Shown here: one piece after another, positions 2,362-27,159 of the stretch
Layout of the letters: every line of letters begins with the position of its first letter
How positions within the stretch are numbered: position 1 is the stretch's first letter
Assembly (NCBI RefSeq): GCF_902506345.1
Contig: NZ_LR733413.1
Coordinates: 1 to 64,000, forward strand
Direction of reading: 5' to 3'
Source: Flavobacterium sp. 9R
GTDB lineage: Bacteria; Bacteroidota; Bacteroidia; Flavobacteriales; Flavobacteriaceae
DNA length: 64,000 nucleotides
Notes under the pieces: model-generated
Databases searched by the model: none
What the model was told of the DNA's origin: nothing
What the model saw: the letters and a program-made list of their open reading frames with translations, nothing else
Program-made: the position numbers and the translations under genes

Positions 2362-4305
2362 ATGAAAAGACAGTTACTTCTTTGTCTTGCTATAACCTCT
2401 TTTTTGAGTAATTCTGGTTTTGCTCAAAAAGCCAAGATAGCATCCGCTGATAAGAAATACAATAGTTATGCGTACATTGATGCGATACAGACCTACGAGC
2501 GACTTGCTGCAAAAGGTTATCAATCGGGAGAAATGTTTGAGAAATTGGGTAATGCCTATTATTTTAATTCTGATTTTGAAAAAGCAGCTCAATCTTATGA
2601 AAAGCTATATCAATTGCAGTCAGAATTAGCACCAGAGTATTATTACCGTTATGCTCAATCATTAAAAGCTTCAGGAAAAGAAAAAGAAGCGGCAAGTGTA
2701 TTGGCTAAATTCGAAAGCAAATCTGCAAACGATAGTCGAAGCAGACGCTTGAGAAACAATAGCGATTATTTAGAAGATATTAAAGCTAATGTTGGCATCT
2801 ATACCATTGAAAATGCTGGAATCAATTCTAAATATTCTGATTATGGAAGTGCTATTGTTGATAATAAATTGATTTTTACTTCTGCAAGAGATACTGGAGG
2901 AGTAGGTCAGCGTAAACACGCTTGGACAGGTGAACATTTTACGAATTTGTATGCCGCTGGTGTTAACGGAGAACTTATTCCGAGTAATCCCGTTCGTTAT
3001 GATGCAAATGTTAATTCTAAATTCCATGAAGCTACACCAGTGTTTACCAAAGATGGTAACACTATGTATTTTACCAGAAACAACTATTTGGACGGTAAAA
3101 AAGGAAAAGATGCCAACAAAGTTACGTTGCTTAAAATCTATAAAGCCACTTTGGTAAACAATAGATGGACAAATGTAACCGAGTTGCCATTCAATAGCAA
3201 TAACTTCAGTACTGCACATCCTGCCTTGAGTCCCGATGAACAAACGTTGTATTTTGCCTCAGATAGACCAGGAACTATTGGGCAGTCTGATTTGTATAAA
3301 GTAGTCATCAATAGCAACGGAACTTATGGGGAACCCATCAATTTAGGAGCAGAAATTAATACTGAAGGAAGAGAAACTTTTCCATTTGTAACCAAAGACA
3401 ATCAATTGTATTTTGCTTCAGACGGTCACCCTGGACTAGGAGGATTGGATATTTTTACTTCCAAAATCAACAACGATGGTAGTTTTGGCGAAGTTGAAAA
3501 TGATGGGGCAGAAGTGAACTCTCCCAAAGATGATTTTGGATACTACAGAGATAGCGAAATCAATAAGGGATTCTTCTCTTCCAATCGTGAAGGAGGATTG
3601 GGTTCCGATGATATTTATCGATTTACAAGTAGAGACAAGTGCAAACAAATCTTAAAAGGAATAGTGACAGATAGTGCTACTGGTGTTGCTTTGGCAGGTG
3701 TACAGCTGATTCTTTTGAATAAGCAATACAAAGTGATTGCAGAGACCACATCTGATGCTTCAGGATATTATGCTTTTGATGTAAATTGCAGAAAAACTTA
3801 CCATATAAGAGCTAACAAAAAAGACTATACTTCAAAAGAGACAAAGCTTAGAACTCCTGAAGTAACTGGAGAGACAAAGCTTGATATTCAGTTAGAAAGT
3901 ACTATTTGTAGAGTTGCAGTTGGTGATGATTTGGGTAAATGTTTTGGCATCAAAATGATTTATTTTGACTTAGATAAGTCTACTATTCGTAAAGAAGCCG
4001 CTTTGGATTTAGCCAAAATATTAGATGTTTTGATGCAAAATCCAACTATGAAATTGGACATTCGTTCTCATACCGATTGCAGACAAACAGCAAAATACAA
4101 TTTATTATTATCAGACAGAAGAGCAAAAGCAACAATTGCTTGGTTGGTATCAAAAGGAATCGATTCCTCTAGGCTTACCGGACGAGGTTATGGAGAATCA
4201 CAACTCATTAACGATTGCGGATGCGAACCTACAAATGCCTCAAACTGCACTGAAGAACAACATCAAATGAACCGCAGAAGTGAATTTATTATAACAGCAC
4301 TCTAA
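2362..4305 (+). CDS. OmpA-family envelope protein with TPR, PD40-type repeats and a carboxypeptidase-regulatory-like domain
   Basis: A 647-residue protein with a signal peptide (about 1-21, ending SGFAQ). Domains in order: TPR-like helices (about 25-130), PD40/WD40-like beta-propeller repeats (LIFTSARD, LYFASDRPGTIGQSDLY, FFSSNREGGLGSDDIYRF; about 145-425), a carboxypeptidase-D regulatory-like sandwich (about 428-510), and a C-terminal OmpA peptidoglycan-binding domain (IYFDLDKSTIRKEA, SHTDCR, LSDRRAKATIAWLVSKGI, NRRSEF). This architecture is standard for the third gene of adhesin-SprF-OmpA clusters and for PorE-like T9SS components. It starts 12 bp after the previous stop, so the three genes probably form one operon. 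It likely links the outer-membrane machinery to peptidoglycan. Confidence 0.9.
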   Translation: MKRQLLLCLAITSFLSNSGFAQKAKIASADKKYNSYAYIDAIQTYERLAAKGYQSGEMFEKLGNAYYFNSDFEKAAQSYEKLYQLQSELAPEYYYRYAQSLKASGKEKEAASVLAKFESKSANDSRSRRLRNNSDYLEDIKANVGIYTIENAGINSKYSDYGSAIVDNKLIFTSARDTGGVGQRKHAWTGEHFTNLYAAGVNGELIPSNPVRYDANVNSKFHEATPVFTKDGNTMYFTRNNYLDGKKGKDANKVTLLKIYKATLVNNRWTNVTELPFNSNNFSTAHPALSPDEQTLYFASDRPGTIGQSDLYKVVINSNGTYGEPINLGAEINTEGRETFPFVTKDNQLYFASDGHPGLGGLDIFTSKINNDGSFGEVENDGAEVNSPKDDFGYYRDSEINKGFFSSNREGGLGSDDIYRFTSRDKCKQILKGIVTDSATGVALAGVQLILLNKQYKVIAETTSDASGYYAFDVNCRKTYHIRANKKDYTSKETKLRTPEVTGETKLDIQLESTICRVAVGDDLGKCFGIKMIYFDLDKSTIRKEAALDLAKILDVLMQNPTMKLDIRSHTDCRQTAKYNLLLSDRRAKATIAWLVSKGIDSSRLTGRGYGESQLINDCGCEPTNASNCTEEQHQMNRRSEFIITAL

Positions 4306-24450: not shown

Positions 24451-25695
24451 TTAACCAATGAGTTGGGTGAATAAATCCTGTTTTTCGTTGAGGTATTGGT
24501 ACACAAATCCCATTTTTTTCATATTGTCTTTGATGGCTACAATGTCGTTTGGATTTTTCACTTCTAAACCTACTACCACAGAGCCTACTTCTCGACTGTT
24601 CTTTTTAGCAAATTGGAAATAGGTGATGTCATCGTCTGGTCCTAAAATGGTATTGACAAATTCTTTCAATGCTCCAGGACGCTGCGGAAATTGTATCATA
24701 AAATAATGCATTAATCCTTCGTAAAGTAATGAGCGTTCTTTGATTTCGGCGGTGCGTTCAATATCGTTATTGCTGCCGCTTACCACGCAAACCACAGTTT
24801 TACCTTTGATTTGGTCTTTATAAAAATCCAACGCTGCAATGGTCAAAGCGCCTGCGGGTTCTACGACCATCGCTTCTTCGTTGTACAAACGCAAGATAGT
24901 GGTGCACACTTTTCCTTCGGGAACAAGGACGATATCGTCTAGGTTTTTTTGACAAATGGCGAAGGTTTGGTCGCCCACTTGTTTTACGGCGGCTCCATCT
25001 ACAAATTTGTCTATAGTGTCTAAAGGTGTATTGGCTTGATTGGCAATCGATGTTTTCATCGAAGGGGCACCTTGCGGTTCAACACCAATGATTTTGGTAT
25101 TTGGGCTAAGGTGTTTAAAAACGGTGGATAGGCCAGAAGCTAAACCGCCACCTCCTATGGGAACAAAAACATAATCGATGGGTTGTTGGTATTGTTCAAC
25201 AATTTCGAGTCCTACGGTACCTTGTCCTGCAATGACTTTCTCGTCGTCAAAGGGATGGATAAATGCTTTTTGGTTGTCCTTGGCGTCGGCAACAGCTTTG
25301 GCATAGGCATCATCAAAGGTGTCACCTGTTAAAACAATTTCGACCCATTTTTTGCCAAAGAGTTGTACTTGTTTTACCTTTTGATTGGGCGTGGTTTTGG
25401 GCATATAGATTTTGCCTTGTATTTGCAAAAGATGGCAAGAGTACGCCACCCCTTGTGCGTGATTGCCAGCGCTGGCGCACACAATGCCATTTGTTTTTTC
25501 GCTTTCGTTTAAGGATTTTATTTTGTTGTATGCGCCTCTAATTTTATAAGAACGCACCACTTGAAGGTCTTCTCTTTTAAGTAAAATAGTAGCTCCAAAT
25601 TCTTCTGAAAGATTGAAGTTTTCAGTTAAAGGAGTAGTTGGAACTACGTTGGCTAATTCTTGTTGTGCTTGTTGTATGGATTGAAATAAGTTCAT
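24451..25695 (-). CDS. ilvA: Threonine ammonia-lyase (threonine deaminase)
   Basis: 414 residues. The PLP domain carries the lysine motif RSYKIRGAYNKI, the SAGNHAQGVAY motif and the glycine-rich phosphate loop VPIGGGGLASGL. A single ACT-like regulatory domain follows (about 325-414: MIQFPQRPGALKEFVN, VGSVVVGLEVKN), as in Bacillus-type enzymes. It converts threonine to 2-oxobutanoate, the first committed step to isoleucine. It follows an ACT-domain gene by 11 bp and both lie behind two Ile-rich leader peptides, which supports the biosynthetic rather than the catabolic role. Confidence 0.95.
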   Translation of the reverse strand: MNLFQSIQQAQQELANVVPTTPLTENFNLSEEFGATILLKREDLQVVRSYKIRGAYNKIKSLNESEKTNGIVCASAGNHAQGVAYSCHLLQIQGKIYMPKTTPNQKVKQVQLFGKKWVEIVLTGDTFDDAYAKAVADAKDNQKAFIHPFDDEKVIAGQGTVGLEIVEQYQQPIDYVFVPIGGGGLASGLSTVFKHLSPNTKIIGVEPQGAPSMKTSIANQANTPLDTIDKFVDGAAVKQVGDQTFAICQKNLDDIVLVPEGKVCTTILRLYNEEAMVVEPAGALTIAALDFYKDQIKGKTVVCVVSGSNNDIERTAEIKERSLLYEGLMHYFMIQFPQRPGALKEFVNTILGPDDDITYFQFAKKNSREVGSVVVGLEVKNPNDIVAIKDNMKKMGFVYQYLNEKQDLFTQLIG

Positions 25696-25706
25696 TTTAT
25701 TTGTTT

Positions 25707-26135
25707 TTAATTGAATTGTAATGTTGATTTTTTGAGGGTGCTTTGTAGCGCGTAAAAGTGCTCATTGATAATTTTACCACAACAAATCCAATGCTCTTTT
25801 TCTTGAAATAAAAAGGAAATAGGATAGTGTGTGATTTGTTCTCTGTCTATGGTTGGAATTTTGAAAAGTATAATTTGATGGGTTTCTAGTTCATTTTCAT
25901 TTTGGGTGTAACAACAAAAAACCTCGATGATTCGTTCCAAAATAGCCACTATGGTTTTGCTATTCGTTTCGTCATTCCAATAGTCAATCCTGATTTTGTA
26001 TAGTGAAGTGTGCTCACAAATGTCAACCCAAAAATGGTCGATTTGTAGCTTTTTCCGAGTGAATATCAAGACAATTTTACTGATTAGCGTGGCTTCTTTT
26101 TCGCAAAACAGCGTAAGGGTTATTTTTTCTTTCAT
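25707..26135 (-). CDS. Small ACT-domain protein, divergent acetolactate synthase small-subunit-like
   Basis: 142 residues. The first 70 (ITLTLFCEKEATLISKIVLIFTRKKLQIDHFWVDICEHTSLYKIRIDYW) follow the pattern of IlvN/IlvH (start with x-L-x-V, then GLxxRIxxxFxRRxxNIxSLxV) with the glycine replaced, so it appears degenerate. The second half (QIILFKIPTIDREQITHYPISFLFQEKEHWICCGKIINEHFYALQSTLKK) is weaker. No catalytic subunit (IlvB) is in the window. It could be a regulatory subunit supplied in trans or an independent Ile-sensing protein. It is placed directly after the tandem attenuators and 11 bp before ilvA, so it is probably part of isoleucine synthesis control. Confidence 0.6.
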   Translation of the reverse strand: MKEKITLTLFCEKEATLISKIVLIFTRKKLQIDHFWVDICEHTSLYKIRIDYWNDETNSKTIVAILERIIEVFCCYTQNENELETHQIILFKIPTIDREQITHYPISFLFQEKEHWICCGKIINEHFYALQSTLKKSTLQFN

Positions 26136-26159
26136 TGTTATTGTGGTTCATTTTTATTC

Positions 26160-26193
26160 AAAAAAAAACCTTTCTCAAGTGACGAGAAAGGTT
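26160..26193 (-). terminator. Attenuator terminator 2, upstream of the ACT-ilvA genes
   Basis: On the minus strand AACCTTTCTC pairs with GAGAAAGGTT (7-nt loop) and is followed by a run of nine or more T, 25 bp before the ACT-gene ATG. The loop sequence CTCGTC is complementary to GACGAG just after the stop of leader 2, which offers a competing antiterminator pairing. Confidence 0.85.
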
Positions 26194-26221
26194 TCATACT
26201 TATGCATAACATCCTAACTCG

Positions 26222-26272
26222 TCAACAAAGACGAATAATAATGATGTTAATAATATTAGTGTTTTGTGTCAT
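26222..26272 (-). CDS. Ile-rich leader peptide 2
   Basis: ATG to TGA, 16 residues: MTQNTNIINIIIIRLC. Six of 16 residues are Ile, four in a row. The stop codon lies just before GACGAG, the candidate antiterminator strand, and 28 nt before terminator 2. It has the structure of an amino-acid-biosynthesis leader peptide: stalling at Ile codons when isoleucyl-tRNA is scarce would favour antitermination. It is not in annotated-ORF length range, and no ribosome-binding site is expected in this group. It closely parallels leader 1. Confidence 0.8.
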   Translation of the reverse strand: MTQNTNIINIIIIRLC

Positions 26273-26277
26273 AATCT

Positions 26278-26304
26278 AAAAAAAAACCTCCCAATTGGGA
26301 GGTT
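26278..26304 (-). terminator. Attenuator terminator 1
   Basis: On the minus strand AACCTCCC pairs with GGGAGGTT around AATT, and nine T follow. It lies between leader 1 and leader 2. Confidence 0.85.
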
Positions 26305-26344
26305 CTATATTGTTATTGTTAATACTATACAGCGCCTCACATTC

Positions 26345-26395
26345 TCATCGAATGATAATTAAAATGCTGCTAATAATTGTGTTATTGTTTTTCAT
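26345..26395 (-). CDS. Ile-rich leader peptide 1
   Basis: ATG to TGA, 16 residues: MKNNNTIISSILIIIR. Six Ile and one Leu. It begins about 18 bp after a TATATTTG promoter box and ends 40 nt before terminator 1. Its position, length and composition are those of an Ile-responsive attenuation peptide. A GTGAGG sequence just after its stop could pair with CCTC of the terminator stem as antiterminator, though this pairing is short. Confidence 0.8.
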   Translation of the reverse strand: MKNNNTIISSILIIIR

Positions 26396-26412
26396 ATAAA
26401 AATGGGATACCG

Positions 26413-26420
26413 CAAATATA
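26413..26420 (-). promoter_or_regulatory. Candidate promoter (TATATTTG) for the leader-ACT-ilvA transcript
   Basis: Exact match to TAnnTTTG on the minus strand, followed by CGG, 17 bp before the leader 1 ATG. No clear -33 TTG at the expected distance was seen. Confidence 0.6.
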
Positions 26421-26444
26421 AACAATTATGGTGTTCACCACTAT

Positions 26445-26981
26445 TTATTTTTTCACTGGAGGATATTGTGCTAAAATTTTCCCCACAAATTCAGCAACTA
26501 CTTCGTCTTTTTTGTCCGTGTTTTTAGTTAAGGTTCCAATACCTTCACCTTGCCAAATCATTTCTTTCTTTTTAGCATCGATGAGGTCGATAAACAAGGT
26601 GCCTTCGGTAGAGGTGGAAACGGTGGTTTGGTTGCCACCCATCATCCAAGGATTCCAGCCCCAACCCCAGCCGTAACCCCAACCAGCGTTGAATTGGTTT
26701 ACGCTAACTTGCTCTCTGGATTTGGTAAAAATATTGATTAACAAATCAGGTGTTTCGCTTTTGGTAAATCCTTTGGCAGTCATTTGTTGGTCAATGGCTC
26801 TCAAAATACGTTTTTTGTCCAAATCAGAAATCTCTACTTTGTCAATACCCGCTTTATAATACGCATAGGTTTTGTAAGGAGAAAAATCTACATTTTTGTC
26901 GTAATCCGAATATACTCTAACGGAACTACAAGAACTAAAAAAAACAACTAGCACTAAGGCAAATAATGATATAGGTTTCAT
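26445..26981 (-). CDS. DUF4136 family lipoprotein
   Basis: 178 residues with a lipobox signal (LFALVLVVFFSSC, Cys at about 18), so an inner- or outer-membrane lipoprotein. The DUF4136 domain has the pattern VRVYSDYDKNVDFSPYKTYAYY ... LDKKRILRAIDQQMTAKGFTKSETPDLLINIFTKSREQ ... GTLFIDLIDAKKKEMIWQGEGIGTL. A Trp/Gly-rich insert (GWGYGWGWGWNPWMMGG) is typical. Function is unknown. It lies just upstream of the ilv leader on the same strand, with no obvious terminator between. Confidence 0.85.
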   Translation of the reverse strand: MKPISLFALVLVVFFSSCSSVRVYSDYDKNVDFSPYKTYAYYKAGIDKVEISDLDKKRILRAIDQQMTAKGFTKSETPDLLINIFTKSREQVSVNQFNAGWGYGWGWGWNPWMMGGNQTTVSTSTEGTLFIDLIDAKKKEMIWQGEGIGTLTKNTDKKDEVVAEFVGKILAQYPPVKK

Positions 26982-27159
26982 ATGGATATTGTTTAAGTTA
27001 TTATCTATTATGATTCTCGCTTTCTACTGCAAAATAATCTATTTTCAGTTCAAGATAGTTTTTTTAACATTAGATTATAACTATCAAAATGTTAGTTTAA
27101 AACCACCAGTATCTTTCAAAAAACGGATTTGTTATGAAGATTTCAAAGGAAATCCTGTA

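Follow-up and report, generated by a model that had tools for sequence, protein, structure and literature searches.

The operon considered here lies on the minus strand of the window, by which is meant the whole stretch of 64,000 nucleotides that was analysed, and it comprises two genes preceded by a leader region. The distal gene, ilvA, is recognised as encoding a threonine ammonia-lyase, its NCBIfam match reaching 630 bits against a cut-off of 421; the proximal gene, referred to here as N2, encodes an ACT protein whose match to the acetolactate synthase small subunit family NF008864 (E=1.3e-5) amounts to 24.9 bits where the cut-off is 119, and which matches no Pfam family at E<=0.001, while the small subunit of a related locus (L064) matches it at E=1.7e-11. 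As the same genome carries a separate ilvD-ilvB-ilvN-ilvC run (L149; ilvD and ilvN identified by search, ilvB and ilvC by eye), N2, which has no ilvB beside it, looks like an extra, shortened and diverged small subunit; its role could be to regulate acetolactate synthase as a second such subunit, or else to act on IlvA.

Upstream of N2, the elements that a first-pass annotation of this DNA had listed, namely a promoter, a leader ORF and a terminator, followed by a second leader ORF and a second terminator ahead of the ACT gene and ilvA, are all present in the sequence and in that order (Table 1). Both predicted leader ORFs are short and carry a run of codons for isoleucine, the presumably regulated amino acid, and intrinsic terminators, recognised from sequence and fold, stand between the ORFs and the genes. 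The two peptides had been described as having six Ile residues in equal positions: the number is correct, the positions (7, 8, 11, 13, 14, 15 and 7, 8, 10, 11, 12, 13) coincide in four cases out of six. The short pairings then proposed, GACGAG with CTCGTC and GAGG with CCTC, do exist, as parts of larger predicted antiterminator hairpins. The idea that leader 2 might be a recent copy of leader 1 finds no support in a comparison by eye, in which the terminators and linkers of the two units differ.

Table 1. Features of the leader region and of the genes behind it, in the order of the predicted transcript (positions refer to the window)
Feature	Position	Strand	Basis or remark
Putative promoter -7 box, TATATTTG (TAnnTTTG)	26413-26420	minus	start of transcription expected a few bases downstream
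Leader ORF 1, MKNNNTIISSILIIIR + stop, 6 Ile	26345-26395	minus	ORF reading
Predicted antiterminator 1, 5' strand GTGAGGCGCTGTATA, directly after stop 1	26326-26340	minus	fold
Intrinsic terminator 1, AGAACCTCCCAATTGGGAGGTTTTTTTTT	26278-26306	minus	hairpin and T-run; conserved in alignment A2
Leader ORF 2, MTQNTNIINIIIIRLC + stop, 6 Ile	26222-26272	minus	ORF reading
Predicted antiterminator 2, 5' strand GACGAGTTAGG, overlaps stop 2	26213-26223	minus	pairs with CCTTTCTCGTC, 26181-26191
Intrinsic terminator 2, AAACCTTTCTCGTCACTTGAGAAAGGTTTTTTTTT	26160-26194	minus	hairpin and T-run, fold
ACT gene N2 (diverged IlvN-like acetolactate synthase small subunit), 142 aa	25707-26135	minus	weak NCBIfam match
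ilvA, threonine ammonia-lyase, 414 aa	24451-25695	minus	NF006390, PF00291, PF00585

An array of this kind is not a product of chance, as may be judged from a scripted search for Ile-rich ORFs of 10-35 codons with a terminator behind them. Applied to 1.88 million strand-bases, made up of loci that are partly redundant and enriched for ilv loci, it returned 123 distinct chains. Two or three units occur in 34 of these, each of which, as we read the loci, belongs to an ilv locus, and the single chains found outside ilv leaders are three (L025, L033 and L161, all on the minus strand). Within the 64-kb window, the script found no further Ile-rich ORF with a terminator beyond the array itself, which figures in the scan as L001.

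Among ilvA loci of Flavobacterium, leader 2 accompanies N2. The window is itself Flavobacterium DNA, and the IlvA proteins of locus L031 and of F. succinicans LMG 10402 (L032) are respectively 98% and 96% identical to its own; in a sample of 80 ilvA loci of named genomes, two leaders are present in all 12 loci in which N2 lies between leader and ilvA. In 65 further loci the operon contains ilvA only, and the script reports one leader in 61 of them; in L076 and L110 the single leader is accompanied by a spurious ORF with Ile codons, which runs across the terminator stem and is not counted, in L108 the single leader is found farther upstream and in L059 there is none, so that the script found no genuine second leader in any of the 65 ilvA loci devoid of N2. 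The remaining loci are L064 and L096, with the order ilvB-N2-ilvA and the leader pair before ilvB, and L045, truncated by the end of its contig. A protein search with N2 in 199 Flavobacterium genomes gave 48 genomes with a match, that of the window included and several being the same as the named genomes, and 40 were examined. The first-pass annotation had made conservation of both Ile-rich ORFs and their hairpins in relatives a touchstone of its proposal, and such conservation is indeed observed: in the 24 loci where N2 heads the operon, with or without ilvA behind it, both leaders are present in 24 out of 24, and the pair is kept across differing gene neighbourhoods, including those in which the upstream gene is another one. 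Strain CI04 of F. johnsoniae also has a tandem ahead of N2 (L136/L146).

N2 follows ilvB in the other 16 loci, where the picture is more varied; in the 12 whose leader region was read (all of the 16 but L016, L018, L021 and L027), there are three leaders in L158 and L159, two in L153, L154 and L165, one in L150, L151, L152, L156, L157 and L160, and none in L155. In L158 (about 2866-3299, genome G009) and L159 (about 2859-3429, genome G193) the three leaders precede an ilv operon, and the second and third are nearly identical, as though one had been duplicated on the spot. Arrays of two or three leaders are also seen in other Flavobacterium ahead of ilv(E)DBN operons, and the ilvD loci of the kind found in the window's genome (22, two of which come from one genome) have one leader each, rich in both Ile and Val. 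In all these counts the names ilvB, ilvC and ilvE were assigned by eye, and the script thresholds dropped leader 1 of L002, L009, L032, L033 and L035 and leader 2 of L165, which are otherwise visible. The layouts are consistent with an ancestral order leader 1 - leader 2 - ilvB - N2 - ilvA, from which losses of blocks would have given leader 1 - ilvA.

The composition of the peptides indicates which amino acid they would sense. Over 28 tandem loci, leader 1 contains on average 8.3 and leader 2 7.5 Ile residues, with 0.6 Val each, whereas the leaders of ilvD operons (n=17) contain 5.8 Ile and 4.5 Val; this agrees with the needs of the pathway, ilvA being required for isoleucine only and the ilvD operon for valine too. 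The residue is conserved rather than the codon, which varies in 9 of the 17 columns where every sequence of a given length class has Ile. Both leader ORFs are presumably translated.

The box TAnnTTTG, which we take to be the Bacteroidetes-type -7 promoter consensus, is found ahead of leader 1 in each of the 28 tandem loci tested, at a distance of 24-28 nt except for one case of 39 nt, and a single locus of the 28 has it between the leaders; before single ilvA leaders it occurs within 70 nt upstream in 63 cases out of 63, against a background of 5.7% for random 70-nt stretches of the window. Since the box is constant before leader 1 and almost never present between the leaders, the second unit in Flavobacterium is most likely devoid of a promoter of its own, and both units most likely stand in series on one transcript.

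To model the switch, the transcript was folded at a setting of 25 C up to, but excluding, the 3' arm of the terminator, and a ribosome at the stop codon was mimicked by masking 15 nt from the stop codon onward. In the window, the predicted antiterminators 1 and 2 have energies of -16.1 and -23.3 kcal/mol when the strand is free and of -5.4 and -5.1 when it is masked, and the terminators with which they compete have -18.0 and -19.2 kcal/mol, respectively; over 34 loci, the means go from -14.6 to -3.7 kcal/mol for antiterminator 1 and from about -14.7 (-14.65) to -1.1 for antiterminator 2. The minimum-energy fold contains an antiterminator of at least six pairs in 32 of 34 loci for leader 1, in 34 of 34 for leader 2 and in all 55 distinct single leaders, and each strand mostly prefers the terminator arm of its own unit to that of the other (28 of 34 loci for the leader 1 strand, 33 of 34 for the leader 2 strand). 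In silico, each unit has a predicted antiterminator that would exclude its terminator; a ribosome at the stop codon would block it, in leader 1 only in part, and one stalled at the Ile codons would leave it free. The helix of leader 2 is formed by GAC-GAG-AGG with CCT-CTC-GTC, mostly with one unpaired base before GTC. With the untranslated ORF included in the folding, 32 of 56 cases retain the antiterminator as the structure of lowest energy. On the whole, the folds suggest a two-hairpin switch with no clear protector hairpin.

Compared with shuffled linkers, the energies of the tandem antiterminators are moderately low (mean z -2.1 for leader 1 and -2.0 for leader 2), with 9 and 7 of the 34 loci, respectively, lower than every one of the 60 shuffles; the signal of the single leaders is stronger, with a mean z of -4.1 and 45 of 55 below all 60 shuffles. 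In the alignment of terminator 2, 96.4% of the cells are paired; one of its pairs is G-C in 18, A-U in 12 and G-U in 3 of the 33 distinct rows. Its covariation is thin, that pair being the only one changed on both sides, a count that 374 of 500 shuffles reach, while the covariation score is reached by none of the 500. A deviating case is L013 (oriented coordinates about 1190-1332), where leader 1 runs past its usual stop (MKNNSNISIIISVAIIKCLQRGVI) and the antiterminator is lost, so that in this lineage one stage may have changed or died.

A further regularity concerns the spacing between the last Ile codon and the antiterminator, counted between their first bases: its median is 12 nt in all three classes of leader, with exactly 12 nt in 19 of 33 leaders 1, 15 of 34 leaders 2 and 46 of 55 single leaders; nine more leaders 2 read 6 or 7 nt, which is ascribed to nine peptides with an Ile after Arg. 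The offset of the antiterminator from the stop codon differs among the three classes, being mostly 6 nt in leader 1, 0 in leader 2 and 3 in single leaders. A constant distance from the Ile codons is what is expected if stalling at these codons is the event sensed. The proportion of antiterminator 5' pairs lying no more than 12 nt from the stop has a median of 0.55 in leader 1, 0.82 in leader 2 and 0.89 in single leaders; a ribosome at stop 1 would therefore block its antiterminator only in part.

Serial arrays extend beyond the genus. In a family sample of 199 genomes, ilvD was found at E<=1e-50 in 154, and the region before the ilvD operon was read in 60 other genera (60 of 80 computed, the first 28 by E-value and then by selection). 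The script, which does not distinguish true absence of leaders from their divergence, counted two leaders in 7, one in 17 and none in 36; genome G311, scored 0 at L196 probably because of a misplaced gene start, has three leaders (L168, about 172-620), the second and third almost identical, so that at least one of the 36 is a miss and serial arrays occur in at least 8 of the 60. In these eight arrays every scored leader folds with an antiterminator of at least five pairs, one ORF in L215 having been wrongly picked. Among the serial loci that were folded, for which the ORF chosen for one leader was wrong in L215 and over-long in L159, the simple test found no antiterminator in 4 of 27 leaders, namely the first leaders of L158 and L165 and both trp leaders of L327. 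The TAnnTTTG box precedes the first leader only in L158, L159 and L165 (3 of 12 loci) and was not found upstream of the serial leaders in the eight arrays of other genera.

Leaders of other specificity were also scanned. A His-rich leader (e.g. MFAIQLHHHHLHYCTQAMC) with a terminator, always single, precedes hisG in 21 of 21 Flavobacterium loci (L256-L276), and all 23 loci scanned for trp (L307-L329) have, upstream of the trpE-type gene, a leader that contains Trp codons and is followed by a terminator, the 23 being drawn from 30 returned and the seven omitted being mostly weaker matches; in L327 (genome G020, minus strand, oriented about 1071-1438) two trp leaders with similar terminator stems stand in series. 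For the thr operons (26 of 30 returned loci) the empty scan is uninformative, since flanks of 1.5 kb around a homoserine dehydrogenase domain, deep within its gene, stop short of the leader. A search of a plasmid collection gave no match. Taken by amino acid, the Flavobacterium loci examined have leaders for Ile, His and Trp, with terminators, ahead of the matching genes.

The reading that we hold to be highly probable is that the region contains two ribosome-mediated transcription attenuators in series on one transcript, both sensing isoleucine. The tandem attenuation put forward by the first-pass annotation is supported by the conserved leaders and hairpins, by the switch obtained in silico with its near-constant geometry and by the position of the box before leader 1. 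RNA polymerase would begin upstream of leader 1. With ample Ile-tRNA, the ribosome on leader 1 would reach the stop and cover the strand behind it, so that terminator 1 would form and transcription would end; with scarce Ile-tRNA, it would stall in the run of Ile codons, leaving that strand free to pair with the 5' arm of terminator 1, and the polymerase would continue. At leader 2, a new ribosome would likewise have to stall for the polymerase to pass terminator 2, and expression of N2 and ilvA would be approximately the product of two read-through chances. The expected effect of the series is a smaller leak in the presence of isoleucine and a steeper rise under its shortage; if an untranslated leader is open by default, two stages would square the leak. 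Of the two outcomes originally envisaged, a steeper response would thus follow from the logic of the series, and a two-threshold response has no particular support, both leaders being rich in the same amino acid and similar in geometry.

Three other explanations have been weighed. It is unlikely, in our view, that only one attenuator is active and that the other is the remnant of a gene fusion in which leader 1 came with ilvA and leader 2 with an ilvB/ilvN-like unit: such an origin would account for leader 2 accompanying N2 and being unseen in ilvA-only loci, as well as for the loss of the antiterminator from leader 1 of L013, but none of the 24 N2-headed loci examined has lost either leader, and N2 loci with no ilvA behind them have both. 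The near-identical second and third leaders of the triplets in L158, L159 and L168 suggest that copies have been gained and kept. Since a DUF4136 gene with the same orientation stands upstream of terminator 1, leader 1 and its terminator might simply be the 3' end of that gene's transcript, the real leader beginning at leader 2; this is very improbable given that the box stands at a nearly fixed distance ahead of leader 1 in all 28 loci, one of which has it between the leaders, and given the persistence of leader 1 where the upstream gene differs.

Least probable of all, and hardly credible, is that the hairpins form a T-box or another ligand-binding RNA to which the Ile-rich ORFs are incidental. 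The linkers from stop to terminator are strongly conserved, and a PyrR binding site is matched below threshold (26.9 bits, cut-off 54); against this, an Rfam scan of positions 25600-27000 gave eight matches at E<=1, all below their cut-offs, the best being Phe_leader (E=0.00079) over leader 1, with no T-box or metabolite riboswitch among them. In addition, the Ile residues persist while their codons change, and the position of the antiterminator tracks the Ile codons.

Leader-peptide attenuation of amino-acid operons is classically exemplified by trp, his and ilvGMEDA of E. coli, and the units described here share with these a short ORF with many codons for the end product, an intrinsic terminator and a competing hairpin, all before genes of the same pathway. 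To our knowledge, textbook amino-acid attenuation has one attenuator per transcript or operon; here, unlike in the classical cases, two or three units stand in series. A close parallel is offered by mgtCBR of Salmonella, whose leader RNA, according to Lee and Groisman (2012; PMC3641672), contains two short ORFs, mgtM and mgtP, each within an attenuator. As in that operon, a single leader RNA would here carry two short ORFs, each part of a predicted attenuator; unlike there, where the two are described as sensing different signals, ATP and proline, and the stem-loops are said not to resemble intrinsic terminators (PMC3641672), each unit has an intrinsic terminator and isoleucine is the key amino acid of both, as judged from the codons of the two leaders.

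Tandem T-boxes and riboswitches likewise place similar sensors one behind the other ahead of an operon (PMC7583486, PMC12452182); a "more-digital" regulation has been noted for a tandem arrangement (PMC2864571), and the modes of action of tandem T-boxes are stated in a 2020 review among these sources to remain unknown. T-boxes and riboswitches bind tRNA or a metabolite directly, whereas here the translating ribosome would be the sensor. Within the genus, strong clues for leader-peptide attenuation before amino-acid operons have been presented for Flavobacterium psychrophilum (PMC9723704), in a paper whose main text contains neither "ilv" nor "isoleucine" and in five passages of which no serial arrangement is mentioned; in Bacteroides, small ORFs reminiscent of leader peptides have been mentioned (PMC7366714). 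Searches of open-licence papers yielded no description of serial leader-peptide attenuators for one amino acid. The array would represent a known type of switch, leader-peptide attenuation, in a serial form of which no description was found in these papers.

As to the family as a whole, we lean towards the view that Flavobacteriaceae repeat whole attenuators, with one to three stages for the same amino acid before ilv and sometimes trp operons, that the copies arise by local duplication and are kept by selection, and that their number tunes gain and leak. Such a natural series, in which homologous genes of related species stand behind one, two or three similar sensors, would allow the effect of the number of stages on leak, steepness and induction to be measured directly, and the serial arrays raise the question of why the control of isoleucine in particular needs stages.
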